DNA of 60,958 nucleotides from Rhizobiaceae bacterium (GTDB taxonomy: Bacteria; Pseudomonadota; Alphaproteobacteria; Rhizobiales; Rhizobiaceae), in contig JACVCH010000023.1 of NCBI GenBank assembly GCA_016742175.1, positions 1 to 60,958 on the forward strand, written 5' to 3'. Below the pieces are notes generated by a model, which saw only the letters and a list, made by a program, of their open reading frames with translations, made no database searches and was not told where the DNA came from. Positions within the stretch are counted from its first letter, which is position 1. Each line of letters opens with the position of its first letter. A program made the translations under genes and the position numbers. Of this stretch, positions 11,475-27,809 are shown piece after piece.

Positions 11475-11540
11475 TCCATCCTCCCTGATTGTCGCTGTGA
11501 CTGTTAGGGCAGGGCGGCGCGTCCGGCAATGCGGCAGGGC

Positions 11541-12182
11541 TTAACCGTTCGCGAAGCGTCGGAGGAGGTCGAGCACTTCCGAATCCTCCAGTTGATCAAA
11601 CTCGCGATAGCAGAGGCTGAGCGCGCGAAAGTGCTGCGGCTGGTCGAGGCAGACGATCCGCTCGACCTCGGGCAGCAGGGCCGCGATGGCGTCGGGCGGC
11701 GCGACGGGCAGCGCGGCGACAACCAGCGCGGCCTGGCGCCTGCGGACGGCGCGCGCGACGACTTTCATGGTCGCGCCGGTGGCGGCGCCGTCGTCGACGA
11801 GAATCACCGACTTTCCTGCCAGCGGCTGCGCGGGGCAGATGCGGCGATAGACGGCGCTGCGGCGTTCGAGTTCGGGCAGTTCCTGCGCGATTCGTGCCTT
11901 CAGGCGCTCGCCGGACAGATCGAAATAGTCGGCGATCTCCTGGTTGAGCACCACCTCCGGCGGATCGCCGTCGACGATCGCGGCGAGCGCCAGTTCGCGA
12001 TTGCCGGGCGCGCCGACCTTGCGGACGATCGCCAGGTCGAGCGGCGCACCGATGGCGGCCGCGATTTCGCAGGCCACCGGCACGCCGCCGCGCGGCAGGG
12101 CCATCACGACCGGCTGGTCGAGATGGAGCGCGGCGATCTCGACGGCAAGCAGGCGGCCGGCTTCGCTGCGGTTCTGGAACAT
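11541..12182 (-). CDS. Phosphoribosyltransferase family protein
   Basis: A 213-residue type I phosphoribosyltransferase-fold protein. The PRPP-binding loop is clear (VILVDDGAATGATMKVVARA), and the N-terminal ALPRGGVPVACEIAAA segment matches the group that accompanies, or is fused to, dienelactone-hydrolase domains. Another conserved stretch reads AIVRKVGAPGNRELALAAI. The substrate base is unknown for this subgroup. The ATG at 12182 begins MFQNRSEAGRLLA, the usual start of this family; the upstream ORF extension overlaps the neighbour's 3' end and is unlikely. It lies 48 bp downstream of the SRPBCC gene on the same strand, so they may be cotranscribed. Confidence 0.85.
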   Translation of the reverse strand: MFQNRSEAGRLLAVEIAALHLDQPVVMALPRGGVPVACEIAAAIGAPLDLAIVRKVGAPGNRELALAAIVDGDPPEVVLNQEIADYFDLSGERLKARIAQELPELERRSAVYRRICPAQPLAGKSVILVDDGAATGATMKVVARAVRRRQAALVVAALPVAPPDAIAALLPEVERIVCLDQPQHFRALSLCYREFDQLEDSEVLDLLRRFANG

Positions 12183-12230
12183 CGTGTTCCGATTTCGCCG
12201 CTCATCGGGCCTGATCGTCAAGCGCCCCGA

Positions 12231-12674
12231 TCAGCCGTTGATCTCGGGCTCGACGAGCCTGGCGAGCTTGCGCAGCGATTCCTGCCAGCCGAGATAGCAG
12301 GCTTCGCGCGGAATGAGGTCGGGGATGTTCCGCTGCTCGATGTCGATCTCGGTGCCCACCGATACGGATTTCAGCGTCACGGTGACGGTCATCTCGCCCG
12401 GCAGGTTCGGGTCGTCGAAACTGTCGGTGTAGACGAGACGCTCGCCGGGAACGACCTCGACATAGGTGCCGCCGAACGCATGGCTGACCCCGGTCGTGAA
12501 GTTGCGGAACGACATGCGGTGCCTGCCGCCGACGCTGGCATCCAGTTCGTGGACTGTGCAGACGAAGCCGAACGGAGGCAGCCAGCTCGCGATGGCGTCG
12601 GCTTCGACGAACGCCCTGAAAACCTTCTCCGGCCGGGCGGCCAGAACCCTGTGAAGGCGAACGGTGCTTGGCAT
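12231..12674 (-). CDS. SRPBCC/AHSA1-domain protein
   Basis: A 147-residue START-like (SRPBCC, AHSA1 subgroup) protein. Seen are the opening HRVLAARPEKVFRAFVEADAI, the tryptophan-centred SWLPPFGF, the GGTYVEVVPGERLVYTDSF strand pair typical of this family, and the C-terminal WQESLRKLARLVE helix. Members bind hydrophobic ligands in a deep cavity; the ligand is not predictable. ATG 12674 lies 8 nt after an AAGGA ribosome site. The larger frame extending to 13058 runs antisense-like through the LysR gene and is not coding. Confidence 0.87.
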   Translation of the reverse strand: MPSTVRLHRVLAARPEKVFRAFVEADAIASWLPPFGFVCTVHELDASVGGRHRMSFRNFTTGVSHAFGGTYVEVVPGERLVYTDSFDDPNLPGEMTVTVTLKSVSVGTEIDIEQRNIPDLIPREACYLGWQESLRKLARLVEPEING

Positions 12675-12792
12675 TGGAGAGTCCTTTCCTGAAAATCGTC
12701 GTGATCGGTTGCACCTACGAGGACGGGCGGCCACCGTGTCTCCCGACAATCGGCATCCCAATTTCGATGAACGACGCCGGCTGGCATGAGCG

Positions 12793-13698
12793 CTACCGGC
12801 TCTGGACGGTCTTCGACAGGAAGCGGCTGAACTTCTGCGTCGCCGGCGTCGCTGCGCGGCTTGGCGAGGTGACGAGGCGGATGTCGATCGACAAAGGCGG
12901 CGCGTCGAGATCGATGACGGCAAGATTGCCGGCCGCCACGTCGACGCTGACGCTCGTCGCCGGCGAGCAGGAAATGCCGAGCCCGGCCGCGACGAGTTCG
13001 CGCAGGAACGAATATTCGGTCGCCTGCGCCACGGTTCGCATTTCGGTGATGCCGACATCCGCGAGCAGCTTGGCGATCGCCCGGCCGAAGAGCGAGGAGG
13101 GGGGCGGCGCGACGAAGCCGTGCTTCTGCACCTCCTTCGGGCTGACCTTGCGCCGGCCGGCGAGCGGATTGTCGGCCGAGACGACGAGGACGAGCGGCTG
13201 ACGGCCGATGACCTCGGAGCGCAGGCCGCGGATTTCGGTGTTCGACAGGAAGCATCCGAGATCTGCCCGCCCGTCGCGCACCTCCTCGATCACGTCCTCC
13301 TGCTTGCCGACCGAGACGACGAGGTGGATGTCGGGATGGCCGACGGCGAATTCCGTGATCGGCTTGCGCAGGACGAAATTGGCGAGCGAACGCTGGCAGG
13401 AGAACACGACGCGCTCGCCGGCATTGGCGCGCACGATCGACAGGTCCGCCTGCATGTCGCTGACATCGGCGAGAAGCTCGCGGGCGTGGGAGACCATCGT
13501 CCGCCCGAGTTCGGTCAGCACCGGCTTGCGCCCTTTGCGCCGGTCGAAGACCGCGCCGCCGAGCTGCTTTTCAAGAGCTGCGACATGCGCCGAGACCGAC
13601 GGCTGCGCGATGCCGAGGAGATCGGCCGCGGCGGCGAAACTTCCGGTTTCGACGATGGAAAGAAACGCTTCGAACCGGCGCAGGGTGATGTTCAGCAT
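12793..13698 (-). CDS. LysR-family transcriptional regulator
   Basis: A 301-residue LTTR. The N-terminal winged helix-turn-helix is complete (LRRFEAFLSIVETGSFAAAA, then QPSVSAHVAALEKQLG), followed by the linker helix and a periplasmic-binding-like effector domain (residues about 90-290). It is divergent from the hydantoinase/ABC cluster, with 244 bp between the start codons. LysR regulators usually control the divergently transcribed operon and themselves, so the effector is probably the substrate or an intermediate of that pathway. A dyad of ATAGCC half-sites lies just upstream of its start codon. Effector identity is not deducible. Confidence 0.92.
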   Translation of the reverse strand: MLNITLRRFEAFLSIVETGSFAAAADLLGIAQPSVSAHVAALEKQLGGAVFDRRKGRKPVLTELGRTMVSHARELLADVSDMQADLSIVRANAGERVVFSCQRSLANFVLRKPITEFAVGHPDIHLVVSVGKQEDVIEEVRDGRADLGCFLSNTEIRGLRSEVIGRQPLVLVVSADNPLAGRRKVSPKEVQKHGFVAPPPSSLFGRAIAKLLADVGITEMRTVAQATEYSFLRELVAAGLGISCSPATSVSVDVAAGNLAVIDLDAPPLSIDIRLVTSPSRAATPATQKFSRFLSKTVQSR

Positions 13699-13708
13699 GC
13701 CCGAACAT

Positions 13709-13737
13709 ATAGCCCATAGGCTATCGCTTTGATAGCC
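13709..13737. promoter_or_regulatory. Candidate LysR operator, three ATAGCC half-sites
   Basis: ATAGCC (13709-13714), a 4-bp spacer and GGCTAT (13719-13724) form a perfect 6-bp-arm dyad. A third half-site ATAGCC follows at 13732-13737, 23 bp from the first. It starts 11 bp upstream of the lysR start codon, where an autoregulatory LTTR site would be expected, and faces the hydantoinase operon. Dyad plus an extra half-site fits the recognition/activation-site arrangement of LTTRs. Confidence 0.5.
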
Positions 13738-13942
13738 TTTCGGCCCGTTGCTTTCGTTGGGTCAGGCTGGCGATAGTCGGTGCGAGGATCGAAGCCCGGC
13801 CGATGCCGGGTTTTGGAAGAAAAGGTGTCGGACCCATCCGAATGGACGGCCGACGGGAGAGAGCCGGACCCGCGCGAAGCATCGCGCCACCCGCCGTCAC
13901 GCCCGTCCGTCCCTGGAAGTCCGGCAATAGCCGGAGCAGCGT

Positions 13943-15991
13943 ATGAACATCGTCGGCATCGACATTGGCGGAACCTTCACCGATCTGGTCGGCTATGTCG
14001 ACGGGGCCATCGTGACGTCGAAGACCTCGACCGTGCCGTCCGACCCGACCAAGGGCATTTCGAACAGTCTCGACCTCGCCGGCTGCGACACCCGCAATCT
14101 CGACGAGATTCTCCATGGCTCGACCATCGCCATCAACACCGTGCTGGAGCACAAGGGCGCGCGCACCGCGCTCCTGACCACGAAGGGCTTTCGCGACGTC
14201 TACGCGATCGGCCGCTCGAACCGGATCGAGGCGTTCAACCTGATGTTCAAGCGGCCAGAACCGTTGGTTCCGCGCCGGCTGACCTTCGAAATCCGCGAAA
14301 GGATGCTGGCTTCCGGCGAGATCGAGACGCCGCTCGACGAAGACGACGTGCGCGCCGCGATCGATGAGCTAGGCGACGTGCAGGCGGTCGCGGTCTGTCT
14401 CCTCCATTCCTATGCCAATCCGGCGCATGAAAAGCGCGTCGGCGAGATCATCCGCGCGGCGCGGCCCGACCTATTCGTCTCGCTGTCGCACGAGATCCTG
14501 CGCGAATATCGCGAATACGAGCGGACCTCGACCACCGCGCTCAATGCCTTCGTCGGCCCGCGCGTCGGCGGCTATCTCCAGCGCTTCGAGAGCTTCCTGC
14601 GCGACGGCGATTTCGACGGCAAGATCCACATCATGCGCTCCAACGGCGGCGTGATGTCGATCGCGCATGCCCAGGAACAGCCGGTCACGATGATGGAATC
14701 CGGCCCGGTCGCCGGCATGATCGGTGCGGGGCGGCTGGCGAAGGTGCTCGGCCTTGCGCGCTGCGTCGGCTTCGACATGGGCGGCACGACCGCGAAGGCG
14801 AGCCTGATCACCGACGGCGCCCCCGCGATCGAGAGCGGCTATGTGATCGGCCACCATGCGAGCGGCCAGCCGATGCAGTTGCCGGTCGTCGACATCGTCG
14901 AGGTGGGCGCGGGCGGCGGCTCGATCGCCTGGGTCGATCCGACGGGCGGTCTGCATGTCGGCCCGAAAAGCGTTGGCGCCGATCCAGGGCCCGCGTGCTA
15001 CGGGCTGGGCTCGGGCGAGCCGGTGGTGACCGACGCCGACCTGATCCTCGGACGCATCAATGCAAAGCGGTTCCTCAATGGCGGCATGCCCCTCGACCGG
15101 GCGGCGTCGGAAGCGGCGGTGACGGACAAGCTCGGCACGCTGGGGCTCGGCGTCACCGAGGCCGCGCTCGGCATCGCGCGCATCGCCGACGTGTCGATGT
15201 CGCTCGCCGTGCGCGCCGTCTCGGTGAACAAGGGCGTCGATCCGCGCGACACGGCCATGATCGCCTTCGGCGGCGCGGGCCCGCTTCATGCCGTGTCGAT
15301 CGCCCGCGAAATCTTCATTCCCAAGGTGGTGATCCCCAAGCTGCCCGGCACCTTCTCCGCCCTGGGCATGCTGATGTGCTCCTGGCGGCAGGACTTCCTG
15401 CAGACGCTGATCGGCCGCATCGGTTCGCTGGCACCCGAGCAGGTCGAGGAGGTGTTTCGCAATCTGGCGGAGGAGGGGCGCTCGCATCTGGTGCGTGACG
15501 GGCTCGACGCCGCCACGGCCGATTTCCGCTTCTATGCCGACCTTCGCTATGTCGGCCAGGAACACGCGCTGTCGATCCCGGTCGAGAGCGTCGAGCGGCT
15601 GACAGGCGATTCCGGCGTGGTGCGCCAGCGCTTCGACGCCGAACACGATCGCCGCTACGGACAGTCGGCGCCGAGCGAGGCGCTGGAGATCGTCAGCCTG
15701 CGGCTGGTCGTGACGTCCGAACGCGGCGATACGGTCGCCGAGGAATGGCTGTCGCAGCCCTTCGAGGCGGAAGGCGAGGCGGAGATCGGCAAGCGGACGG
15801 TCGTCTACGACGATCCGGACAATCCCGTCGAGGCTGACATTTACTGGCGTCCCGCTCTGCCCGCCGGCACGCGGCTGACCGGCCCGGCGGTGATCGAGGA
15901 GCCGAACTCGACCATCCTGATCCATCCCGGCGACGAGGTCGAGGTGACGCCGCACGGCCACCTCGTCATCACGCTTGCGACCCGGAACTGA
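13943..15991 (+). CDS. hyuA: Hydantoinase/oxoprolinase family protein, subunit A
   Basis: A 682-residue HyuA-type subunit of ATP-dependent hydantoinases and oxoprolinases, in the ASKHA ATPase superfamily related to the acetone carboxylase beta chain. The N-terminal phosphate loop is IVGIDIGGTFTDLVGY; the second, FDMGGTTAKASLITDG, lies near residue 276; an adenosine-type FGGAGPLHAVSIA follows near 450. Such enzymes couple ATP hydrolysis to activation and opening of a cyclic amide (N-methylhydantoin, 5-oxoproline and others). Length is normal. The start has GGAG 6 nt upstream. It is first in the operon, with subunit B 17 bp downstream. Substrate is unknown. Confidence 0.92.
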   Translation: MNIVGIDIGGTFTDLVGYVDGAIVTSKTSTVPSDPTKGISNSLDLAGCDTRNLDEILHGSTIAINTVLEHKGARTALLTTKGFRDVYAIGRSNRIEAFNLMFKRPEPLVPRRLTFEIRERMLASGEIETPLDEDDVRAAIDELGDVQAVAVCLLHSYANPAHEKRVGEIIRAARPDLFVSLSHEILREYREYERTSTTALNAFVGPRVGGYLQRFESFLRDGDFDGKIHIMRSNGGVMSIAHAQEQPVTMMESGPVAGMIGAGRLAKVLGLARCVGFDMGGTTAKASLITDGAPAIESGYVIGHHASGQPMQLPVVDIVEVGAGGGSIAWVDPTGGLHVGPKSVGADPGPACYGLGSGEPVVTDADLILGRINAKRFLNGGMPLDRAASEAAVTDKLGTLGLGVTEAALGIARIADVSMSLAVRAVSVNKGVDPRDTAMIAFGGAGPLHAVSIAREIFIPKVVIPKLPGTFSALGMLMCSWRQDFLQTLIGRIGSLAPEQVEEVFRNLAEEGRSHLVRDGLDAATADFRFYADLRYVGQEHALSIPVESVERLTGDSGVVRQRFDAEHDRRYGQSAPSEALEIVSLRLVVTSERGDTVAEEWLSQPFEAEGEAEIGKRTVVYDDPDNPVEADIYWRPALPAGTRLTGPAVIEEPNSTILIHPGDEVEVTPHGHLVITLATRN

Positions 15992-16008
15992 CACGAAGGA
16001 ACCGACAC

Positions 16009-17706
16009 ATGAGCAATCCCAAGGCAGATCCGGTTACCGTCGAAGTCGTGCGCAGCGCCGTCGTCGCCTATGCCGACGAGATGGCGGACGTGTTGTGCAA
16101 GTCCGCCTACAACATGATGATCTACGAGGTGCGCGACTATTGCTGCGGCCTGCTCGACACCTCCGCGCAGATGATCTCGCAGAACCGCGGCGGCCTGCCG
16201 ATCTTCCTCGCCGATCTCGGCGTCGCGGTCGAGGACGGCATCCAGCGCTACGGCCTCGACGGCTTTGCCGAGGGCGACGTCCTGGTGATGAACCATGGCC
16301 AGGTCTGCGGCCAGCACCTGAACAACGTCGTCGTCTACGCGCCGTGCTTTCATGACGGCAAGCTCGTCGGCTTCGCCGCAAATCGCGCCCACTGGGTCGA
16401 CATCGGCGGCGGGCGCCAGGGCTTCGGCTCGAGCGCGACGACGGAGATTTTCAGCGAGGGTCTCCAGATGCGCTCGCTGAAGATCTACGAGGCGGGCAAG
16501 CTCAACGAGACGCTCTACCAGATCATCCGCGACAACATTCGCTACCCCGATGCGAGCCTCGGCGATCTGCGCGCGCAGATCGCATCCTGCCAGCTCGGCG
16601 CCCGCCGCCACGGCGAACTGATCGCGCGCTACGGGCAGGAGACCGTCGCGCAGGCCGTCGACACGATCTGGGACCAGGCCGAGAAGGCGGCGCGCCTCGT
16701 CGTCGAGAACATTCCGGACGGCGTCTACGAGGCGGAAAGCTTCCTCGACAATGACGGCCGCGCGCTCGACGTTCCGATCCGGATCAAGGTCAAGGTGACC
16801 ATCGCCGGCTCGCAGATGACGGTCGACTATTCGCAGATGCACCCGCAGGTGAACAGCCCGATGAATTGCGGCCGGTCGGGCGGCATCGCCGCCGCCCGCG
16901 TCGCCTTCAAGGCGCTGACCTCGCCCGAGCTCGACGTCAACGAAGGCTGCTTCCGCCCGCTGACCGTCGATCTGCCCGACGGCACGATCCTCAGCGCCCG
17001 CTCGCCCGCCGCGCTCGGCCAGTGGAGCATCGCGCTGCCGACAGTGATCGACACGATCCTGAAGGCGCTCTCCTCAGCCATTCCGGACGTGGTGCCGGCC
17101 GCACACAAGGGCGACATGGGCGGCTGTTCCTTCTTCGGCTTCCACGAGGACGGCTCGCGCTTCCTTCTGATGAACATCTTCGGCGGCGGCTGGGGCGGAC
17201 GGCCCGAGGCGGACGGCGCATCGGCATCGGTCTCGGTCTGCCAGGGCGACGTGCGCAACACGCCGGTGGAACTGCAGGAGATCAAGTATCCCTTCATCAT
17301 CGAGCAGCACGCGCTGCGCCCGGATTCGGGCGGTGCGGGCAGGTATCGGGGCGGGCTCGGCGTCGCGCTGACCTATCGCTGCCTACAGGCCTGCAAGGGC
17401 AACATCAATTTCGACCGCACCGTCACCCCGCCCTGGGGTCTGCACGGCGGCGGCGAGGGCGCCGTCAACACGGCCATCATCGAGCGTGCCGACGGCACGC
17501 GCCAGACGGTGCAAAAGGGCACCGAAATCCAGTTCCACCCCGGCGACCGCGTCACGTTCCTAACGGCGGGCGGCGGCGGCTACGGCAAGCCCGAGGACCG
17601 CGACCCCGATGCGCTCGACGCCGACATCGCCGACGGCATCGTCTCGCCCGAAAGCGCTGGACGAAGCTATGGCCGCGATCCCCAGCCCGTCCGTCTGGCC
17701 TCGTGA
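16009..17706 (+). CDS. hyuB: Hydantoinase/oxoprolinase family protein, subunit B
   Basis: A 565-residue HyuB subunit, the partner of HyuA. Recognisable are DPVTVEVVRSAVVAYADEMA near the start, NRAHWVDIGGG (residues about 125-135), MTVDYSQMHPQVNSPMN, and the glycine-rich C-terminal sector with SGGAGRYRGGLG and FLTAGGGGYGKPEDR. These are hallmarks of the family (Hydantoinase_B). A and B together form the functional enzyme. The normal length and intact motifs argue for activity. It is spaced 17 bp from hyuA and 10 bp from the next gene. Confidence 0.92.
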   Translation: MSNPKADPVTVEVVRSAVVAYADEMADVLCKSAYNMMIYEVRDYCCGLLDTSAQMISQNRGGLPIFLADLGVAVEDGIQRYGLDGFAEGDVLVMNHGQVCGQHLNNVVVYAPCFHDGKLVGFAANRAHWVDIGGGRQGFGSSATTEIFSEGLQMRSLKIYEAGKLNETLYQIIRDNIRYPDASLGDLRAQIASCQLGARRHGELIARYGQETVAQAVDTIWDQAEKAARLVVENIPDGVYEAESFLDNDGRALDVPIRIKVKVTIAGSQMTVDYSQMHPQVNSPMNCGRSGGIAAARVAFKALTSPELDVNEGCFRPLTVDLPDGTILSARSPAALGQWSIALPTVIDTILKALSSAIPDVVPAAHKGDMGGCSFFGFHEDGSRFLLMNIFGGGWGGRPEADGASASVSVCQGDVRNTPVELQEIKYPFIIEQHALRPDSGGAGRYRGGLGVALTYRCLQACKGNINFDRTVTPPWGLHGGGEGAVNTAIIERADGTRQTVQKGTEIQFHPGDRVTFLTAGGGGYGKPEDRDPDALDADIADGIVSPESAGRSYGRDPQPVRLAS

Positions 17707-17716
17707 GGACCACCCG

Positions 17717-18820
17717 ATGAGCCTGCTCGAAACCCGTCGCAAGCGCCTGATGGAAGCCATGAAGGCCGAGAACATCGATCTCCTGCTCCTGCACGGCAGC
17801 GCCTGGCGCAACGACTACCTGCGCTACGCGACCGATTTCGGCATCCTCGAAGGCGAGGGGCTGGCGCTCGTCGGCCGCGATGGCGAGGTGACGCTCTATC
17901 TCGACGATGCGCTCGAGGCCGAGCGCGCGGGCGTCGAGCTTGGCGGCGTGCGCACCGAGCATGTCGGCGATCTCGTCGGCGATGTCGGCCGCATCGTCGA
18001 ACGCCACGGCAACCGGCGCGTCGGCGCGGGGCCGGCCGCGCATCTGCCCTATGGCCTGTCGCGCCGTTCCGAAGAATTGCGACTGAGCGATGCGACCGCG
18101 CTTCTCGACCGGCTGCTGATCGTCAAGGCCGAGGACGAGCTGAACGCCATCCGCAGTGCCGCGCACCTCGCCGACGAGGGCTACGACGTGTTCCGCCGTG
18201 CCGCCATCGCCGGGCGCGAGGACTTCTCGATGATCGCCGAGATCGAGGCCTTCTTCCGCGCGAACGGCGCCGACGACAATTTCATGATCATCGGCGTCGG
18301 CGGACCCGAAGTGCGCGGCATGGCGCCGCCGATGGGCAAGCGGCTGAAGGAGGGCGACCTCGTCACCACCGAACTGACGCCCTGCGTCGACGGCTACTTC
18401 GTCCAGATCTGCCGCACGCTCGTCGTCGGCGAACCTTCCGAGGCGCAGCTTCGCGCCTTCGGCGTCTATCACGAGGCGATGGTGGCCGGGATCGATGCGG
18501 TTCGGCCGGGCGTCACCGCGGCGGACGTTGCGCGTGCGGAGAACGATGTCTTCCGCCGCTACGGGCTCGGAGATTACGTGACGAGCGAATACACACGTGT
18601 GCGCGGACACGGCATCGGCCTCTTCCTCGACACGCGGCCGCAGATTCTCGAGGAGGTGGACATGGTGATCGAGGAGGGCATGTCGCTGATCGTTCACCCG
18701 AACACCTACCATCCCGAGGTCGGCTACATGGTGCTCGGCGATTCGCTGATCGTCGGCGCGGACGGAGCCGAGGTGCTGACGAAAACCGAACGCCGGCTTT
18801 TCGCCGTGGCGCAGCACTAG
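17717..18820 (+). CDS. Creatinase/Xaa-Pro peptidase-fold (M24) protein with altered metal site
   Basis: A 367-residue two-domain M24 protein: creatinase/prolidase N-terminal domain (residues 1-125), then a pita-bread domain. The five usual dimetal ligands (Asp, Asp, His, Glu, Glu) are mostly changed. The first strand reads LVTTELTPCVDGYF (Asp to Glu), the second VQICRTLVVGEP (Asp to Gln). The GHGIGL histidine is kept, the next Glu is His in SLIVHPNTY, and the last site is GYMVLGDSL without Glu. It also lacks the catalytic His region expected of true creatinase. A metal-independent hydrolase or another role is plausible. GAGGA precedes ATG 17717. It lies within the hydantoinase operon. Confidence 0.85.
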   Translation: MSLLETRRKRLMEAMKAENIDLLLLHGSAWRNDYLRYATDFGILEGEGLALVGRDGEVTLYLDDALEAERAGVELGGVRTEHVGDLVGDVGRIVERHGNRRVGAGPAAHLPYGLSRRSEELRLSDATALLDRLLIVKAEDELNAIRSAAHLADEGYDVFRRAAIAGREDFSMIAEIEAFFRANGADDNFMIIGVGGPEVRGMAPPMGKRLKEGDLVTTELTPCVDGYFVQICRTLVVGEPSEAQLRAFGVYHEAMVAGIDAVRPGVTAADVARAENDVFRRYGLGDYVTSEYTRVRGHGIGLFLDTRPQILEEVDMVIEEGMSLIVHPNTYHPEVGYMVLGDSLIVGADGAEVLTKTERRLFAVAQH

Positions 18821-18830
18821 GAGGGGGGCG

Positions 18831-19898
18831 ATGCGACGCGGACTGATCAAATGGCGTGAGGACGAACTGTCGGCGGGCGATGTCGGCGAGCGGATCGCGC
18901 GGCTGCGCGGCGCCATGAAGACTGCCGGCCTCGACGCCGTCATCGCCTATACGACGCTGGTGCGTCCGGCGGCGGTGAACTATTTCACCGGCTTCACGCC
19001 CTACTGGTCGGACGGGGTGCTGCTCGTCCTCGCCGAGGGCCGACCGCTCTTCGTCACCGCGCTGTCGAAACGCGTCGGCAACTGGCTGGGCTCGGTGAAC
19101 CCCACCTGCGACATCCTGCATTCGCCGAAGCCCGGCAGGCTGATCGGCGAGACGCTGCGCGCCGCGGGCGCTTTGAAGGTCGGCGCGGTCGAGGCCGACA
19201 TGATGCCCGGCGCGCTGATCGGCGACATGCTTGCGGCCTCGAGCGTCGCGCTTTCGGATGCTACCGGCCTCTTTGCCGCCGTGCGTGCCGTGCCGACCTC
19301 CGCCGAGACCGCGCTGGCGCAAAAGGCCGACGCGATCGCATCCACGGCCTTTGCCGGCCTCGACCTTTCGGCAGCGTGCGTCGGCGACATCACAGGCCCG
19401 CTCGAGCGCGCCGTCCGGCTGGCGGGCGCGGAAGAGTGCTACGTCGCCATCGCGCCGGATTTGCGCCGCGAATCCCGCCTTGCCCGCATCGACGGTCGCG
19501 AGGCGTTGGGCGATCTCTTCGCCGCGCGCGTTTCGGTCGCCTATAACGGCGTCTGGACGCGCCGCACAGAGACGCTGGCGCACTCGGGCGGCCGGGACGG
19601 CGCAGCCGCGGCGCGATTCGCCGAATTTGCCGACCGGCTGGCAGGATTGGACCCGAGCATCGACCTCGGCGCGCGGATTGCCGCGGAGGCCGGGCGCAGC
19701 GACATGGCGGTCGAGGATTGGTCGATCGAAGCCCCGTTCGCGACGCGTCCCTTGAAACTGGCGGCATCCTCCCAGGCGCCGCTCGTCGAGCAACTTCCCT
19801 ATGGCGTCTTGACGCTGCGAGCGCGAATCGGCGACGCGCCGATGGTGGCAAGCCGCGTCCTGACGCACAGCGAAGCGGGCATGGAGGCGGCCGCGTGA
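18831..19898 (+). CDS. Degenerate creatinase/M24-fold protein
   Basis: A 355-residue protein beginning with a creatinase-type N-terminal domain (VGERIARLRGAMKTAGLDAV, VNYFTGFTPYWSDGVLLVLA). A second half only weakly recalls the pita-bread fold (LGDLFAARVSVAYNGVWTRR corresponds to the strand pair that normally carries two Asp ligands). No GHGIG histidine and no C-terminal Glu ligands are present, so it cannot be a standard metallopeptidase. Placed 10 bp after the other M24 protein, it may form a heteromer with it or bind the substrate. Its stop overlaps the GTG of the next gene by 4 bp. Function unknown. Confidence 0.75.
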   Translation: MRRGLIKWREDELSAGDVGERIARLRGAMKTAGLDAVIAYTTLVRPAAVNYFTGFTPYWSDGVLLVLAEGRPLFVTALSKRVGNWLGSVNPTCDILHSPKPGRLIGETLRAAGALKVGAVEADMMPGALIGDMLAASSVALSDATGLFAAVRAVPTSAETALAQKADAIASTAFAGLDLSAACVGDITGPLERAVRLAGAEECYVAIAPDLRRESRLARIDGREALGDLFAARVSVAYNGVWTRRTETLAHSGGRDGAAAARFAEFADRLAGLDPSIDLGARIAAEAGRSDMAVEDWSIEAPFATRPLKLAASSQAPLVEQLPYGVLTLRARIGDAPMVASRVLTHSEAGMEAAA

Positions 19899-21208
19899 CG
19901 ATCGAAGCGCTGATCGACGCCGTCGCATGCCGCACGCCTTCCGGCGATGCGGATCGCCGCGCGCTGGCCGTCCATGTCGCCGATGCGCTGGTCTGCCTCG
20001 CCAAGACGATGCGGCTCGGCGAGGCGCAGGCAATCCGGCGCTTCTACGGCGAAGCAAAGGTGCCGGCCGCAGCTTCGATTATCCGCATGTCGGAATATGA
20101 CGCGATCCATGTGCCGACCTGCCTGTCGCCGGACGCCGTGACGGTGCCGGCGGCGCTGTCGCTCGCCCGCGATGCCGACAGTCTTCTGGAGGCCTGCGAG
20201 GCGGGGACGGCGGTCGGGCTGTGGCTTGCCGACGCGGTTGGCGGCGTGACGGCGCTGGAGCGCGGCATCTGGCCGACGCTCTTTGCGGCACCGGCCATGG
20301 CCGCGGTGAGCGCCGGCGTCGCGATGCGGCTCGGTCCCGACGACCTCGCCCATGCGCTGGCGATCGCGCTGGCTGGAACCTCGGGGCGGCTCGGTCGTCC
20401 GTCCGGTGCGCCCTCGGCACGCTGGCTGTCGATCGGCGAGGCGACCTTGAAGGGCGTGCGCGCGGCCGAGGCCGCCGCACATGGATTTCGTGGGGATCTC
20501 GGGCTGGTCTCGGCCGCATGGCTGCGAGGGCAGGGTGCCGTCGGCGATGCTATTCCCGCCTTGCCGTCCGGCACGTCGCCTCTGATGCGCGTCGGGCTGA
20601 AGCCCTATGTTGCCGCGCGACAGGGCGTCAATGCCCTCACGGCCTTTCTCGAAGCTGCCGACGGGCTCGACGCCCGGTCGATCGACGCGGTGCGGATCGA
20701 CCTGCCTTCCGCCTGTCTGCCGGTCGTCACGCGGCCGCTCGACCTGAGCGACCGCCTGTCGCGGATCGCCAATCTCAGGCTGCGGATCGCGCTTGCCGCA
20801 TGCGAGCCCGGCCGGCTTCACGACGTCGAGGCGACCGTTGCGCCGGACGAGCCTGCACTGGCGCTTGCCGAACATGTCGAAATCCATGCCGACGATACCC
20901 TGCCCGCGGGCGCCGATACGGCCTGGCCGGCGCGCGTGCGGGTGCTCGTGCGCGGCGTATGGCGCGAGGCGACCTGCCTGCGCGGGCCGGGCGACGACGG
21001 CAACATCGCAGTCGCCGAATGCGTGCTCGGCACCAAGCTCGGCCGGCTGGAGGACACGCAGACGGCGCGGCTTCTGGCCGGGGTGCAGGCCGCGCTTCAT
21101 GAAGGACGCGCCGATGCGCTCGACGAGGTGCGCACCGCCTTCGATCGGATTATGGGCGAGACGCAGCAGGAAAGGGCCGTTGAGGAGCGGCCGCGGCGTC
21201 TCGCATAG
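19895..21208 (+). CDS. MmgE/PrpD family protein
   Basis: A protein of about 437 residues of the MmgE/PrpD fold, which includes 2-methylcitrate dehydratase, cis-aconitate decarboxylase and iminodisuccinate epimerase. Supporting segments are the N-terminal helical region (VHVADALVCLAKTMRL), the tandem small-residue helices AAVSAGVAMRLGPDDLAHALAIALAG, and the LKPYVAARQGVNALTAFLEA segment in the position where PrpD proteins have a KxYP-type motif. The start is GTG at 19895, with GGAGG 7 nt upstream and GTGA overlap with the previous stop. It probably isomerises, dehydrates or decarboxylates a pathway acid; which cannot be said. Confidence 0.8.
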   Translation: MTIEALIDAVACRTPSGDADRRALAVHVADALVCLAKTMRLGEAQAIRRFYGEAKVPAAASIIRMSEYDAIHVPTCLSPDAVTVPAALSLARDADSLLEACEAGTAVGLWLADAVGGVTALERGIWPTLFAAPAMAAVSAGVAMRLGPDDLAHALAIALAGTSGRLGRPSGAPSARWLSIGEATLKGVRAAEAAAHGFRGDLGLVSAAWLRGQGAVGDAIPALPSGTSPLMRVGLKPYVAARQGVNALTAFLEAADGLDARSIDAVRIDLPSACLPVVTRPLDLSDRLSRIANLRLRIALAACEPGRLHDVEATVAPDEPALALAEHVEIHADDTLPAGADTAWPARVRVLVRGVWREATCLRGPGDDGNIAVAECVLGTKLGRLEDTQTARLLAGVQAALHEGRADALDEVRTAFDRIMGETQQERAVEERPRRLA

Positions 21209-21241
21209 GGCAGGATTTCAACGAACAACCGGGAGGAAGAC

Positions 21242-22225
21242 ATGAAAGCATTATCGACATTCGCCGCCGCCGGCGTGGCGCTCGCCATGCAGGCCGGCAT
21301 GGCCTTCGCGCAGGAAGCGCCGGAACAGGCCGAGATCACGATCGGCCTGCCGGTCACCACATCGACCTTCCTGCCGCTCTATCTCGCGGAGGAAAAAGGC
21401 TACTTCACCGAAGAAGGGCTGACCGTCGAACTCGTCGCCTTCCGCGGCGGCACGGATCTCGTGCGCGGCATGGTGGCGGGCGCGGTCGACATCGGCGTCG
21501 GCGCCTTGGCCGAAGTGCTGGTCGGCATCGAGTCCGGCCAGGAACTGCGCGCCTTCTACGGCGGCTTCAACATGGGCATCTTCGAGTGGTACGCCGTCGA
21601 GGGCACCAACTCGATCGCCGAGAGCAAGGGCAAGCGCTACGGCGTAACGACGTTCGGCTCGTCGACAGACTTCCTGACGCGCTATGCGCTGAATTCGAAC
21701 GGTCTCGACCCGCAGCGCGACGTCCAGATCATCCAGGGCGGCGGCTCGGGCGCGCGTCTCGCCGCGATGGATGCGGGCCAGCTCGACGTCAACATCTTCG
21801 CCGCGCCGGAAAAATTCATCGCCGGCGACCAGGGCTACAAGCTGATCTACAGCCAGAAGGACATCGCGGCCGACTATCCGAACCACGTGTTCTACGCGCC
21901 GCAGGCAACGATCACCGACAATCCCAACACGATGAAGGCCGTTTTGCGTGCCTTCGTGAAGGGCGTGCGGCTCGCCAAGGAAGACAAGGCCCGTTCGGTG
22001 AAGCTGATCGCCGAGCGCATCGGCGTGGAGGAGAACTACGCCGCACAGACCTATGACGACTTCATCGACGAACTGTACGAGGATGGCCGCCTTCCGAGCG
22101 AGGAAGGCATGACGGCCTTTTGGAACATCGGGATCGAGAACGGCGCCTACACCGAGATGTGGGAGAACGAGCGCTGGCTCGACACGACCTACATGGACAG
22201 CTTCGAGGAATGGAAGCCGCAATAG
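21242..22225 (+). CDS. ABC transporter substrate-binding protein (NMT1/SsuA type)
   Basis: A 327-residue periplasmic binding protein. A signal peptide (basic start, hydrophobic core, cleavage near GMAFAQEA) leads into ITIGLPVTTSTFLPLYLAEE and KGYFTEEGLTVELV, the standard opening of the nitrate/sulfonate/taurine/thiamine-precursor group. A FRGGTDLVRGMVAGAVDIGV segment forms the ligand cleft. It is expected to deliver the pathway substrate to the permeases downstream. GGAGG with 7-nt spacing gives strong translation. A GC-rich hairpin follows the gene before the ATPase. Confidence 0.92.
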   Translation: MKALSTFAAAGVALAMQAGMAFAQEAPEQAEITIGLPVTTSTFLPLYLAEEKGYFTEEGLTVELVAFRGGTDLVRGMVAGAVDIGVGALAEVLVGIESGQELRAFYGGFNMGIFEWYAVEGTNSIAESKGKRYGVTTFGSSTDFLTRYALNSNGLDPQRDVQIIQGGGSGARLAAMDAGQLDVNIFAAPEKFIAGDQGYKLIYSQKDIAADYPNHVFYAPQATITDNPNTMKAVLRAFVKGVRLAKEDKARSVKLIAERIGVEENYAAQTYDDFIDELYEDGRLPSEEGMTAFWNIGIENGAYTEMWENERWLDTTYMDSFEEWKPQ

Positions 22226-22238
22226 GCGTGGCTCCCGC

Positions 22239-22264
22239 CCGGCCGACGCGGACGCGGCGGCCGG
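22239..22264 (+). promoter_or_regulatory. GC hairpin between binding-protein and ATPase genes
   Basis: CCGGCCG (22239-22245) and CGGCCGG (22258-22264) pair perfectly around a 12-nt loop, 14 nt after the binding-protein stop. No T-run follows, so it is not a standard terminator. Such intra-operon hairpins often protect the upstream mRNA and give binding protein in excess of transporter subunits. Confidence 0.4.
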
Positions 22265-22294
22265 CATGCTTAAACGAATGCGGAGGATGAAGAC

Positions 22295-23089
22295 GTGGCA
22301 CAGATCGAAGTCCGCAACCTGTCGATCGAGTACAGGCTCCCGAAGGGCGAGGGCACGTTCACGGCCGTCGACAGCGTGTCGCTCGACATCGAGGCCGGCG
22401 AATTCGTGACGATCGTCGGCTCGAGCGGCTGCGGCAAGTCGACCCTGCTTCTGGCCATCGCCGGCCTGGTGCCGATCGCCGATGGCACGCTGACGATCGA
22501 CGGCGATGCGGTGGAAGGTCCCGGTCCGAACCGCTCCGTCGTCTTTCAGGAAGCATCGCTCCTGCCCTGGAAGACGGTGCTCGGCAATGTCCGCTTCGGT
22601 CTGGAGATGCGCCGCTGGCGCCAGGGCGACCTGTCGAAGCGGGCGATGCAGTACATCAACCTCGTCGGCCTCGGCTCGTTTGCGGATTACCATCCCCACC
22701 AGCTTTCCGGCGGCATGCGCCAGCGCGTCAACATCGCCCGCGCGCTCGCCGTCGATCCTGCGGTGCTCCTGATGGACGAGCCCTTCGGCGCGCTCGACGC
22801 GCAGACGCGCGAGGTGATGGGCGACGAACTCCTGCGCATCTGGGAGCGCGACCGCAAGACGGCATTGTTCGTGACGCACGACATCGACGAGGCGATCTTC
22901 CTCGCCGACAAGGTGGTGGTGATGGGGCGCAATCCCGGTCACATCAAGGACGTGATCAAGGTGGACCTGCCGCGGCCACGCCGCGGCGAGATGCTCGACA
23001 GCGACGCCTTCGCCGAATACCGGCGCCGCCTGCGCGCGCACCTGGCCGCCGACATGGCGACGATGCATCTCGTGCGGGAAGCGGTCTGA
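22295..23089 (+). CDS. ABC transporter ATP-binding protein (SsuB/TauB type)
   Basis: A 264-residue ABC ATPase with every motif intact: Walker A GSSGCGKSTLLLAIAGL (near residue 46), Q-loop VFQEASLLPW, signature LSGGMRQRVNIARAL, Walker B VLLMDEPFGALD and H-loop FVTHDIDEAI. The SLLPWKTVLGNV segment is typical of nitrate/sulfonate/taurine importers. The start is GTG at 22295 with GGAGG 8 nt upstream. Its stop overlaps the start of the first permease (TGATG). It energises uptake at the cytoplasmic face of the two permeases encoded next. Confidence 0.93.
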   Translation: MAQIEVRNLSIEYRLPKGEGTFTAVDSVSLDIEAGEFVTIVGSSGCGKSTLLLAIAGLVPIADGTLTIDGDAVEGPGPNRSVVFQEASLLPWKTVLGNVRFGLEMRRWRQGDLSKRAMQYINLVGLGSFADYHPHQLSGGMRQRVNIARALAVDPAVLLMDEPFGALDAQTREVMGDELLRIWERDRKTALFVTHDIDEAIFLADKVVVMGRNPGHIKDVIKVDLPRPRRGEMLDSDAFAEYRRRLRAHLAADMATMHLVREAV

Positions 23090-23904
23090 TGGTGGCGGTC
23101 GCGGCGACGGCGCCGCAAAAGCGCGTCCCTGAGCCGGCAAGGCTCGGCGCGGGCGCACGCTCGTCCGTGATCGGCTTCTGTTCGGTCGCCGCCTTCCTCA
23201 TCCTGTGGCAGGTCGCGCCGGAGATGGGCTGGGTCAACGGCCGCTTCACCAGCCAGCCTTCCGAGGTCGCCAGGGCGGCCGTCGAAGTCTTCCGAACGGA
23301 CAATTTCCTCCATCACGCCCGCATCAGCCTGACCGAATTCTTCCTCGGTTTCGCGCTGGCGCTCGTCGTCAGCGTGCCGCTCGGCGTGCTCCTCGGCAAT
23401 TCGCGCCTTGCGCGCGACATAATAAATCCGCCGCTGATGGCGCTCTATATCGCGCCGACGCTGATCCTGCTGCCGATCATGACGATCTGGCTCGGCATCG
23501 GCATGGCGTCGAAGGTCGCGGTCGTCTTTCTGGGCGCCATTTTCCCGATCATCGTCAACACGATGGCCGGCATGCGCGAGGCCGACGCCAAGCTGGTGAG
23601 GGCCGCGCAGTCCTTCGGCGCGACGCGCATGGACATCTTCCGCCACATCCTGCTGCCCGGATCGCTGCCGTCGCTGCTCGCGGGCATACGCCTGGCGGTC
23701 GGCCGCGCGGTGCTCGGCGTCGTTGTGGGCGAACTCTACGTTTCTCAGGCCGGAATCGGCCACCAGCTCGTCGTCTATGGCTCTTCGATGCGCGTCGACC
23801 GCCTGCTCGTCTACGCGCTCGTCGTCAGCGTCTTCGGCTATGCGATGACGACCCTGGTGCGCGTCCTTGAAGGCCGCGTGCGCAACTGGAGGCCCGAAAC
23901 ATGA
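23089..23904 (+). CDS. ABC transporter permease 1
   Basis: A 271-residue inner-membrane permease of the SsuC/TauC group with about six transmembrane helices. The ATPase-contact EAA loop is present in the form AQSFGATRMDIFRHILLPGSLP. An earlier characteristic stretch reads ALYIAPTLILLPIMTIWLGI. ATG 23089 overlaps the ATPase stop by 1 bp. It overlaps the second permease by 4 bp, so the two form a heterodimeric channel pair. Many systems of this type have one permease gene used as a homodimer; two are present here. Confidence 0.92.
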   Translation: MVAVAATAPQKRVPEPARLGAGARSSVIGFCSVAAFLILWQVAPEMGWVNGRFTSQPSEVARAAVEVFRTDNFLHHARISLTEFFLGFALALVVSVPLGVLLGNSRLARDIINPPLMALYIAPTLILLPIMTIWLGIGMASKVAVVFLGAIFPIIVNTMAGMREADAKLVRAAQSFGATRMDIFRHILLPGSLPSLLAGIRLAVGRAVLGVVVGELYVSQAGIGHQLVVYGSSMRVDRLLVYALVVSVFGYAMTTLVRVLEGRVRNWRPET

Positions 23905-24677
23905 CCCGCTTCCTCAGGAGCCGCCAGACGCTCATCCTCGGCACGTTGTCGATGCTGGGCATCCTCGCCATGTGGCAATTGTCGGTCTCGCTCGGCCTCA
24001 TCAACCCGTTTTTCGTCTCGACGCCGTCGCTGGTCGCGCAGGAATTCTGGGTGCAGTTCCAGAACGGCGACACGATGCGCGACGTGTCCGCGACGCTCTA
24101 CTCGTTCGTCCTGGCTCTCGGTCTGGCGACGGGGGTGGGGATCGGCCTCGGCGTCCTGGCCGGCTGGTATCGCGACGTCGAATCCGCGCTCGAGCCCTTC
24201 ATCTGGTTCAAGTATTCGGCACCGACCGTCGCCTTCTATCCGCTCTTCATCGCCTGGCTCGGTTATGGAACCCCGACGATCGTCGCCATCGCCTTCCTTT
24301 TCGCGCTGACGCCGATCTATGCCAACACGCTCGCGGGCATCAAGAATGTCGATCGCGACCTGGTCCGCGCCGCGACCTCGTTCGGCGCAAGGCCCTGGGA
24401 CATCTTCCTGCGCGTGGCGTTGCCCGGTTCCGTGCCGATCGTCGTCGCGGGCCTCCAGCTCGGCGTCGGTCGGGCGCTGACGGGCGTCGTGGTGGCCGAG
24501 CTCTTTGGCGGCAATGCCGGGCTCGGCTATTCCATCAACTACTATGCGCAGCACCTGCAGACGACCAAGATGATGGTGTCGATCGTCATCATCATCCTGC
24601 TCGGCGTGGCGCTGACGCAGGCGCTCGCCTTCCTCGAATCGAAGACCGACGCATGGCGCGTCACCCCGAAGAAGTGA
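23901..24677 (+). CDS. ABC transporter permease 2
   Basis: A 258-residue permease paralogous to the preceding one. It shows the same layout: N-terminal helix (LILGTLSMLGILAMWQLSV), the YSAPTVAFYPLFIAWLGYG segment and the EAA loop ATSFGARPWDIFLRVALPGSVP, with six predicted helices. ATG 23901 overlaps the previous stop as ATGA. The product should form the transmembrane channel with permease 1. It lies 22 bp before the amidohydrolase gene, so transport and catabolism are in one transcription unit. Confidence 0.92.
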   Translation: MTRFLRSRQTLILGTLSMLGILAMWQLSVSLGLINPFFVSTPSLVAQEFWVQFQNGDTMRDVSATLYSFVLALGLATGVGIGLGVLAGWYRDVESALEPFIWFKYSAPTVAFYPLFIAWLGYGTPTIVAIAFLFALTPIYANTLAGIKNVDRDLVRAATSFGARPWDIFLRVALPGSVPIVVAGLQLGVGRALTGVVVAELFGGNAGLGYSINYYAQHLQTTKMMVSIVIIILLGVALTQALAFLESKTDAWRVTPKK

Positions 24678-24699
24678 GAACGGCCGAAAGGATCAATCC

Positions 24700-25725
24700 A
24701 TGAAGATCATCGATTCGCATTTCCATTGGTGGCCGCGCCCGATCTTCGAGAGACTGGAGGCGCGCAAGGGCTTTCCGCGTGCCGACCGGAACGAGCGGGG
24801 CGGCTGGACCTATCGCGGCGCGGGCGACCGCGCGGGCCGCATCGCGAGCTGGGCCGAATGGTTCGATCTCGACAGGCAGCTCGAGGCCATGGACGCACTC
24901 GGCCACGACATCGGCGCCGTGCTCTCCATCGGGCCCTTTTCGATCTATTTCTCTGAACTCGAACCGGAGGAAGGCCGCGACGCGGCGATCGAGTGGAACG
25001 AGCAGATGGCCTGGGCGGTCGCGCGCTATCCCGGCCGGCTCTGGGCGAGCGCTGCGATTCCCCTTGCCGACACCGCCACGGCGCTCGACGTGCTGGAGGA
25101 TGCGGTCGACCGACTCGGCCTGATGGGCGTGAACCTGCCCGGCAGCGTCGGCGCCGATCCGCGCATCGACGCCGAAAGGCTGGAGCCGTTCTATGCCCGC
25201 GTCGCCGAACTCGGCCTGCCCATGTTCCTGCATCCGACCGATGCGATCTTCGCCGAGATGCTGTCGGGCTACGGCAACGCGCTTCACCTGAGCCTCGGCC
25301 GGGTCGTCGAGGTCAGCGTCGCGGCCTCGCGGCTGATGTTCTCCGGCCTGATGGACCGCCATCCGGGCCTCAAGATCGTGATGTCGCATACGGGCGGCGC
25401 GCTGCCCTACCAGTCGGGCCGGATGGACAAGAACGGCAAGCAGGCGAAGCTGCCGCACCCGCCGAGCCACTATCTCAAGCGCATGTACACCGACACCGTC
25501 TCCCCGCACGTGGCCGGACAGCGATTCGCGATCGAGTATTACGGTATCGACAACGTCATGTACGGCACGGACTACCCCTGCTGGGACCCGCAGACCTGCC
25601 TCGACCAGCTTGCCGAGGTCGAACTCACCGAATCGGACCGGCAAAAGCTCTTCCACGACAATGCCGTGCGCATTCTCGGCCTGGACATGCCAGGCGAAAG
25701 CGCCGCCCGCCGCGCTGCGGGCTGA
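24700..25725 (+). CDS. Amidohydrolase family protein (ACMSD-like)
   Basis: A 341-residue TIM-barrel metal-dependent hydrolase of the amidohydrolase-2 group, which contains aminocarboxymuconate semialdehyde decarboxylase and related decarboxylases and hydratases. Metal ligands look complete: IIDSHFHWWP (HxH, residues 7-9), MFLHPTDAIF, KIVMSHTGGALPY and MYGTDYPCWDP near the C-terminus. A normal length and intact site argue for activity. It is last in the cluster, 22 bp after permease 2, with GG-rich ribosome site AAAGGA. It likely performs a decarboxylation or hydrolysis in the same pathway. Confidence 0.88.
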   Translation: MKIIDSHFHWWPRPIFERLEARKGFPRADRNERGGWTYRGAGDRAGRIASWAEWFDLDRQLEAMDALGHDIGAVLSIGPFSIYFSELEPEEGRDAAIEWNEQMAWAVARYPGRLWASAAIPLADTATALDVLEDAVDRLGLMGVNLPGSVGADPRIDAERLEPFYARVAELGLPMFLHPTDAIFAEMLSGYGNALHLSLGRVVEVSVAASRLMFSGLMDRHPGLKIVMSHTGGALPYQSGRMDKNGKQAKLPHPPSHYLKRMYTDTVSPHVAGQRFAIEYYGIDNVMYGTDYPCWDPQTCLDQLAEVELTESDRQKLFHDNAVRILGLDMPGESAARRAAG

Positions 25726-25750
25726 ACTCTGCTAAATATCGACGGGCTGG

Positions 25751-25841
25751 TGGCGGAGAGGATGGGATTCGAACCCACGAGAGCCTTTTGAGCCCTACTC
25801 CCTTAGCAGGGGAGCGCCTTCGACCACTCGGCCACCTCTCC
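25751..25841 (-). tRNA. tRNA-Ser (GCU)
   Basis: Read on the minus strand, a complete type II tRNA folds. The acceptor stem is GGAGAGG/CCTCTCC, the anticodon stem CTCCC/GGGAG encloses loop CTGCTAA (anticodon GCU), a long variable arm (GGGCTC...) follows as in serine tRNAs, and the T-arm reads GTGGG-TTCGAAT-CCCAT. The 3' CCA is encoded (25751-25753). It lies tail to tail with the amidohydrolase gene. Confidence 0.97.
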
Positions 25842-26264
25842 GGTGCCCCGGTCGATAAAGAAATCGCCTCCCACAATCAATAAGCACATGGTGCTGGCGA
25901 GCGGAAAAACGACTCGGGGCCGGCGATTCGCGCCCAAAAGGCTGATTCCGGGCATTTGCGGAGGCTTCGCCGACGTGATGACGCAGCGGCAGCGGCGCCG
26001 ATCGCGCCACACCCATTAATAGAGCGTAAAGGCGGCACCCCAAATCGTGGCTTTTGTGCAACAAGCCCCTTCCATAGGGGTGCATGAACGCCCCCGACGG
26101 CGCAAACGCGGTTGATCGGGAGACGGTCCTGCGTATTGTCATGATCGAAGAAGGGGCGGCGAAACACGCTTCCTTTTTCTGAGATTGGGGATGGGGCAGG
26201 GAAACGCTGTCCTTCAGCAAAAAGAGCCCAGACCCGCTTAACAACTTTTGACTGGAGGTCAGAA
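25842..26264. other. Gene-free stretch upstream of porin
   Basis: A 423-bp gap holding the tRNA promoter side (minus) and the porin upstream region (plus). Several short reading frames exist but have no ribosome sites or recognisable content. The final part, GGAGGTC 3 nt before the porin ATG, is a strong ribosome-binding site. A long untranslated leader is likely, as is usual for abundant porins. I could not identify a convincing -35/-10 pair. Confidence 0.6.
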
Positions 26265-27596: not shown

Positions 27597-27752
27597 GCCC
27601 CCTCTGTCCTGCCGGACATCTCCCCCGCGAGGGGGGAGATCACGCGCGTTGACATCAACCCCCAGTCTTGCAACGTATCAGTGCGCGAGGAGCAGTCGCC
27701 GTCGGGAGATCTCCCCCCTTGCGGGGGAGATGTCCGGCAGGACAGAGGGGGG
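27597..27752. repeat. RIME-like palindromic repeat, copy 1
   Basis: Inverted arms (CCCCCCTCTGTCCTGCCGGA... and its reverse complement ending at 27752) of about 40 bp flank a variable core. Each arm holds its own hairpin (TCTCCCCC...GGGGGAGAT). Copies 2 and 3 are at 53616-53769 and 54713-54824 with the same arms and different cores. The structure matches the mosaic palindromes called RIME in rhizobia. It lies between the porin terminator and the convergent slt gene. Confidence 0.88.
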
Positions 27753-27809
27753 CAACGTCGAGCGCTGCCCCTCGCAACAGCGAGCCGCACTCATAAGGCC
27801 TTGGAACCA

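Follow-up and report, generated by a model that had tools for sequence, protein, structure and literature searches.

Whether a set of genes named after creatinase, prolidase and PrpD forms a true functional unit, and whether such names describe what its proteins do, is the question raised by a locus on contig JACVCH010000023.1 of a Rhizobiaceae bacterium (assembly GCA_016742175.1). The analysis concerned a 60,958-nt stretch of this contig, hereafter referred to as the window, to which all coordinates are relative; at positions 12793-25725, a LysR gene faces ten collinear plus-strand genes (all eleven genes lie at the places given in a preliminary description of the locus). The gene set is a real, conserved, LysR-linked import-and-catabolism unit and not the product of chance. 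It occurs in rhizobia and their relatives, and the family names of its proteins (creatinase, prolidase, PrpD) are contradicted by their residues.

Organization and conservation of the gene unit

The regulatory gene, divergent from the putative operon (12793-13698, minus strand), encodes a LysR-type protein with Pfam HTH_1 and LysR_substrate domains. On the plus strand lie the genes for HyuA, the ATPase subunit of hydantoinase/oxoprolinase type (13943-15991), HyuB (16009-17706), two pita-bread proteins referred to as M24a (17717-18820) and M24b (18831-19898), a divergent MmgE/PrpD homologue (19895-21208), a periplasmic binding protein (21242-22225), an ATP-binding cassette (ABC) ATPase (22295-23089), two ABC permeases (23089-23904 and 23901-24677) and an Amidohydro_2 enzyme similar to ACMSD and resorcylate decarboxylase (24700-25725). 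Two gene starts were set inside the longest open reading frames (ORFs), i.e., that of M24a at 17717 and that of the PrpD-like gene at 19895, a GTG giving a 4-bp overlap with M24b. From HyuA through the amidohydrolase gene, the gaps are, in order, 17, 10, 10, -4, 33, 69, -1, -4 and 22 bp, which confirms the preliminary description in its gene order, its 69-bp upper bound on the gaps and its overlaps. The binding protein (Pfam NMT1; TIGR01728 below cut-off), the ATPase (whose nearest models, those of the nitrate, SaoA and taurine types, score under their cut-offs) and the permeases (both Pfam BPD_transp_1) are encoded in one gene run and thus constitute an NMT1/SsuA-type ABC importer.

The M24b relatives on three Neorhizobium galegae plasmids, 20 loci retrieved from one scan of genome contigs and the contig of G005, a genome belonging to the family of the window's own, gave 24 loci, which were mapped by tblastn; since L007 duplicates the contig of L012, 23 distinct loci were counted. 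The full order LysR-HyuA-HyuB-M24a-M24b-PrpD-binding protein-ATPase-permease-permease-amidohydrolase was found in 14 of these 23 related loci, the LysR counterpart being at the same place in all 14. It is carried by four N. galegae records, one of which has broken frames, by other Neorhizobium, by Rhizobium and Xaviernesmea, by three Chelativorans and by a single Hyphomicrobiales metagenome-assembled genome (MAG). The gene-neighbourhood check that the preliminary description had called for therefore turned out in its favour, the order being conserved beyond close relatives, and a lineage-specific accident is rejected because several genera have this order in common.

The remaining organizations are less complete. 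L012 (ATPase gene cut) and L014 (contig end) are partial loci. Seven further loci come from MAGs (Xanthobacteraceae in four of the titles) and retain only parts of the unit; L026, L028 and L029 have HyuAB-M24a-M24b only, and in L031 M24b lies at the contig start. In the single-contig genome G587, HyuA-HyuB-M24a-M24b-PrpD-amidohydrolase are present in this order, with an unlike importer upstream and a LysR gene convergent downstream. The partial MAG loci and the unlike importer of G587 suggest, therefore, that the enzymes are the core of the unit and that the importer is exchangeable.

The ratio of nonsynonymous to synonymous substitution rates (dN/dS) ranged from 0.02 to 0.38 across all 74 gene-by-pair values (seven pairs of related loci, none including the window, with three values missing), the maximum coming from PrpD in two closely related loci whose dS is low. 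Gene decay is disfavoured by these low values, obtained for every gene among the related loci. Mean distances computed for seven genes over 11 loci were lowest for HyuB (0.16) and highest for M24b (0.42) and PrpD (0.46), and the distance matrices were correlated at 0.89-0.98 over gene pairs, with M24a-M24b highest and HyuA-HyuB at 0.97.

Some peculiarities of single loci can be observed. The cluster of MAG NORP335 (L007/L012) stops within the ATPase gene, adjoining a TrbL-type conjugation gene, through either truncation by a mobile element or mis-assembly. In the annotation of L009 (N. galegae VafX2 pNgVX), the genes for HyuB, M24a, M24b and PrpD are split into two ORFs apiece, due to sequencing errors or decay; they are single ORFs in L010 and L011. 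Ahead of the importer and the M24a-M24b pair, L025, L027 and L030 encode a metal-type third M24 protein, a luciferase-like monooxygenase and a TctC protein; a glyoxalase-family protein was seen in L025 and L027 and TauD in L027. In L028, L029 and L031, genes for an NMT1-like protein (a weak match), a cupin and a molybdopterin-domain protein are convergent to M24b and 82-91% identical between loci.

Residue states of the encoded proteins

The residue counts given below omit L009, with its broken frames, and, for PrpD, L018 (a stop in the match range); the PrpD of L014 is cut by the contig end, and L010 and L011 are outside the alignments built for structure prediction.

Both M24a and M24b are modelled with the pita-bread fold, as revealed by AlphaFold2 models with Foldseek (both proteins) and VIA-align (M24b). 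The M24a model, whose best Foldseek match is prolidase 1wy2, has a predicted local distance difference test score of 86, which is only 53-56 over residues 291-310, His298 included. The preliminary description of two M24/creatinase-fold proteins stands as far as the folds are concerned, but in Pfam M24b matches only Creatinase_N and not Peptidase_M24. When M24a is aligned with prolidase 3q6d, the five ligand positions (canonically D, D, H, E, E) are occupied by E219, Q230, H298, H327 and G341, a state invariant in 20/20 sequences and in G587; four of the five M24 metal ligands are thus replaced and one is kept, which places M24a outside the M24 metallopeptidases. M24b, a complete pita-bread fold with Arg233 opposite M24a Glu219, has no recognisable M24 metal-ligand or catalytic set. 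These residue states speak against reading the two proteins by creatinase-family chemistry, as had been done at the outset. In contrast to M24a, the additional M24 protein encoded in each of L025, L027 and L030 keeps D, D, H, E, E, as read by eye.

In a low-identity alignment (its L032 row being ignored), M24a E219 aligns with the Glu of four rows from genomes representing the ectoine hydrolase DoeA, a residue that we take to be the DoeA nucleophile. M24a was considered as a DoeA orthologue and rejected, as it scores 55.9 bits with TIGR02993 (DoeA) against a cut-off of 613; a far better DoeA candidate is found at G000:C9 of the same genome (610.1 bits vs. 613).

HyuA, assigned by Pfam and matching N-methylhydantoinase of the PDB with 442.6 bits, has its phosphate-binding motif DxGGTxTD intact in 19/19 sequences, DxGGT and GxxPGP being visible too. 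As for HyuB, likewise assigned by Pfam, the metal ligands of CapB are, according to PMC8453981, Asp41, His99, Asp102 and His124. The corresponding positions of the HyuB of the cluster are Asp43, His103, Asn106 and His128 in 19/19 loci and in G587, so that the Asp-His-Asp-His tetrad has Asn as its third ligand (Asp102 in CapB numbering); Asp, instead of Asn, is present in 7/7 other HyuB proteins of the same genome and in the two solved relatives that were aligned. The tetrad is not absolute, since the solved relative 7hk5 is without the last His. With the NCBIfam caprolactamase equivalogs, the scores are 489.5 bits (CapA) and 278.8 bits (CapB) against a cut-off of 1000, which leaves both subunits outside these equivalogs; the acetophenone carboxylase (Apc) models score lower. 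Another HyuB gene of the same genome is flanked by two canonical PrpD genes (G000:C2:157270-164551); HyuB-PrpD neighbourhoods are, therefore, not unique to the cluster.

The "MmgE/PrpD" assignment finds a Pfam match, although a partial and weak one (39 bits vs. a cut-off of 32.1). Profile comparison revealed homology with canonical PrpD over 362 columns; searches of the PDB with the PrpD-like sequence and with a 9-row profile gave nothing at E 0.1, and the link was made via a canonical PrpD relative. According to PMC11814083 (cf. PMC12259180), the His103Ala and His277Ala variants of ACOD1 are inactive and His159Ala has lowered activity. At the His103 position, the PrpD-like proteins have Ser/Thr in 12/12 cases, and likewise in G587, whereas canonical PrpD proteins have His in 6/6 (five from the same genome and one from L029). 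The Lys207 position is Arg in 12/12. Near His159, where the alignment is uncertain, Trp is found in 12/12, and some canonical paralogues are also without His. At the offset of His277 from a conserved Lys, Ala is found in 12/12; His is not at that offset in the canonical PrpD proteins compared, nor is it conserved in aCAD. Lys272 has its counterpart, and the DD motif keeps its Asp. What can be regarded as firm, therefore, is that the His103-type base has been lost. Its replacement by Ser/Thr in 12/12 sequences disfavours the interpretation of this protein by the chemistry of its family that had been proposed initially.

The nearest solved relatives of the amidohydrolase include gamma-resorcylate decarboxylase and ACMSD. 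Its HxH, two further His and an Asp (H7, H9, H178, H230 and D291) are invariant in 14/14 sequences and presumably represent the Amidohydro_2 metal-site set. The motifs first described as intact in HyuA and in the amidohydrolase are thus kept in 19/19 and 14/14 sequences, respectively.

Operator-like site, distribution and probable genomic mobility

The comparison of 13 of the 17 available non-duplicate LysR-HyuA gaps revealed in 13/13 an operator-like near-palindrome TATAGYC-N6-YTAT (13708-13724, plus strand) and a conserved CCCGTTGCT (13744-13752, plus strand) starting exactly 36 bp past the palindrome start, the rest of the gap being less conserved. When one mismatch was tolerated, the extended pattern gave a sole match in the own genome, a perfect one at the operon itself; under the same tolerance, its backward control also gave one match. 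The regulon search in this genome found the pattern nowhere beyond the operon. On the basis of these sequence features, we infer that the LysR protein would bind the predicted operator.

The unit is patchily distributed among relatives. M24b was found in 2 of 61 relatives and had no match in any of the four congeners. In the genome scans of the class, family and order, up to five first-look candidates were scored per genome, so that the tallies may be low: M24b was retrieved from at least 1 of 385 class genomes at the thresholds used (the own genome), at least 7 of 394 family genomes (own genome and a 67-residue fragment included) and at least 3 of 397 order genomes (the own genome and two partial, weak matches). 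The matches of G715, G992 and G1149 to M24b are partial and weak. At E 1e-60, M24a was found in at least 1 of the 385 class genomes (the own one).

In the congener G004, the sequences matching window positions 10900-11483 and 25751 onward are about 182 bp apart, i.e., an empty site, and a segment of about 14.3 kb has therefore been gained here or lost in G004. The flanks are about 23 kb apart on one contig in the congener G002 and on different contigs in G001. Homology with the empty site resumes at 25751, the edge of a tRNA-Ser(GCT) gene (25751-25841, minus strand) that flanks the variable segment. No direct repeat was found, positions 10701-13000 and 25651-25900 sharing no 12-mer, and there was no integrase among the scanned ORFs of the segment; a tRNA-targeted element with attachment repeats was set aside on these grounds. 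As a whole, the segment might best be explained as a horizontally spread, LysR-linked catabolic operon that underwent gain or loss at the tRNA-Ser locus, an explanation held with a little less than even confidence.

The variable segment also carries a phosphoribosyltransferase-domain gene on the minus strand. At 11529-12692, a long plus-strand ORF (no Pfam match) looks spurious, the minus strand having this gene and other ORFs. Positions 27598-27784 are a dispersed repeat present on both strands, from which most of the matches listed for the downstream flank derive (at least 128 in the own genome, 97 in G002 and 115 in G003, vs. at least 8 in G001 and 12 in G004).

Proposed pathway and comparison with known systems

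From the gene set, its conservation and its residue states, a series of chemical steps may be drawn. The ABC importer would bring in a small nitrogen compound; HyuA would phosphorylate or activate a cyclic amide-like bond, and HyuB would complete the opening. The opened product would then be cleaved by a heteromer of M24a and the non-catalytic M24b, without the usual dinuclear metal centre, either with Glu219 attacking as the nucleophile, in the manner of ectoine hydrolase, or at a site rebuilt from Glu219, His298 and His327. The PrpD-like protein might be a binding or assembly partner, or perform a chemistry unlike that of known PrpD enzymes, and the amidohydrolase would decarboxylate or hydrolyse in the last step. 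This scheme of import, ATP-dependent ring opening and cleavage by an M24a/M24b heteromer, with M24b and the PrpD-like protein as non-canonical partners, is preferred tentatively, with slightly under an even chance of being right. A cyclic imide, lactam or hydantoin as the substrate class is a guess made by analogy, from HyuAB homology.

Several points weigh against this scheme. HyuB is a family homologue in which, judging from the Asp-to-Asn change, ring opening may be altered or lost. L025, L027 and L030 contain M24a-M24b with an unlike ABC importer and no HyuAB in the available stretch; therefore, what the pair acts on may be something other than the product of HyuAB. M24b and PrpD, the most divergent genes and mostly those with the highest dN/dS, may be less needed. 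The distance correlations do not single out M24a-M24b strongly, and shared history alone can account for them. The putative equivalence of E219 with the nucleophile of DoeA depends on an alignment of low identity and on the role assumed for the DoeA Glu, and the case for a non-canonical PrpD-like protein rests mainly on the His103 position.

A bolder form of the preferred scheme would make M24a/M24b a new type of enzyme, i.e., an obligate heteromer in which M24a has a rebuilt, non-dinuclear site (Glu219, Gln230, His298 and His327, with Glu-His-His possibly holding a mononuclear metal) and M24b is the pseudoenzyme dedicated to it. A HyuAB whose metal site is altered and a PrpD fold deprived of its catalytic base would be coupled to this heteromer in an undescribed degradation pathway; this is rather doubtful. 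If M24a/M24b were an active heteromer, it would represent a new chemistry for the pita-bread fold, and its substrate would show what two conserved pseudoenzyme-like lineages do.

Still less probable is a single large ATP-dependent assembly of HyuAB, M24a/M24b and the PrpD-like protein, comparable to acetophenone carboxylase with extra subunits, in which M24b and PrpD would be structural or channel-forming. The non-canonical residue states conserved along with HyuAB, the 4 bp over which the M24b and PrpD genes overlap and the existence, according to PMC8453981, of multi-subunit enzymes within the HyuAB family are consistent with such a complex; however, some loci have M24a-M24b but lack HyuAB or a recognised PrpD.

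A smaller chance still is given to the degradation of an N-heterocycle first oxidised elsewhere by a molybdenum hydroxylase or by flavin/TauD oxygenases. A molybdopterin-domain, xanthine-dehydrogenase-like protein, a cupin and a binding-protein-like gene are convergent to M24b in L028, L029 and L031, a luciferase-like monooxygenase precedes the pair in L025, L027 and L030, and TauD is present in L027, but none of these genes belongs to the operon of the window, genes of these kinds are frequent neighbours in catabolic loci, and next to the molybdopterin protein no iron-sulfur subunit could be recognised. The 176-aa ORF found there in L028, L029 and L031 was rejected as such a subunit, being a cupin, which slightly lowers this possibility.

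Very unlikely is a canonical pathway in which HyuAB opens a hydantoin or lactam, both M24 proteins are creatinase-like C-N hydrolases and PrpD acts on a di- or tricarboxylate: all the proteins have family-level Pfam matches, and M24a and M24b are modelled as pita-bread proteins, but the lost metal ligands of M24a, the missing catalytic set of M24b, the lost His103-type base of PrpD and the changed ligand of HyuB are all fixed states. Equally unlikely is opine-lactam or plant-amide catabolism, in which the unit would let rhizobia feed on a lactam supplied by the host. The large N. galegae plasmids carrying the unit and the Ti-plasmid HyuAB genes beside opine genes, proposed as opine-lactam openers in PMC6733357 and PMC8554961, are in its favour, but it is at odds with the presence of the unit in Chelativorans and MAGs and with the absence of an opine dehydrogenase from it.

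The preliminary description knew of no named pathway with this combination of genes, and a search of the open-access literature likewise gave no paper with the same one. The known systems resemble the unit in parts. The Ti plasmids pTiEU6 and pTiAB2/73 share with it HyuAB genes on Rhizobiaceae plasmids, placed beside opine genes for a proposed opine-lactam opening, and in pTiEU6 genes for a LysR protein and an ABC importer are also close at hand; neither creatinase nor PrpD is mentioned by name in the texts of PMC6733357 and PMC8554961. Creatinase (PDB 1chm, 1kp0, 7yto) has the fold common to M24a and M24b, with identities of 20-23% and 10-15%, respectively, and no creatine pathway gene belongs to the unit. 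The PrpD-like protein is linked to the ACOD1/MmgE-PrpD family by its profile homology, Lys272 and the DD-motif Asp, and differs from ACOD1 in the residues at His103, Lys207 and near His159. CapAB (PDB 6yra) and N-methylhydantoinase (PDB 7hk5) are homologous to both Hyu subunits over their full length and share the intact phosphate motif of HyuA, whereas the cluster proteins score far below the equivalog cut-offs, have Asn at Asp102 and keep other operon partners. Finally, DoeA (PDB 6twk) shares with M24a the pita-bread fold and the Glu at the first metal-ligand position; the third position falls in an alignment gap, the fourth is His in M24a and Met in the four DoeA rows and, in contrast to DoeA, M24a has M24b as its constant neighbour.

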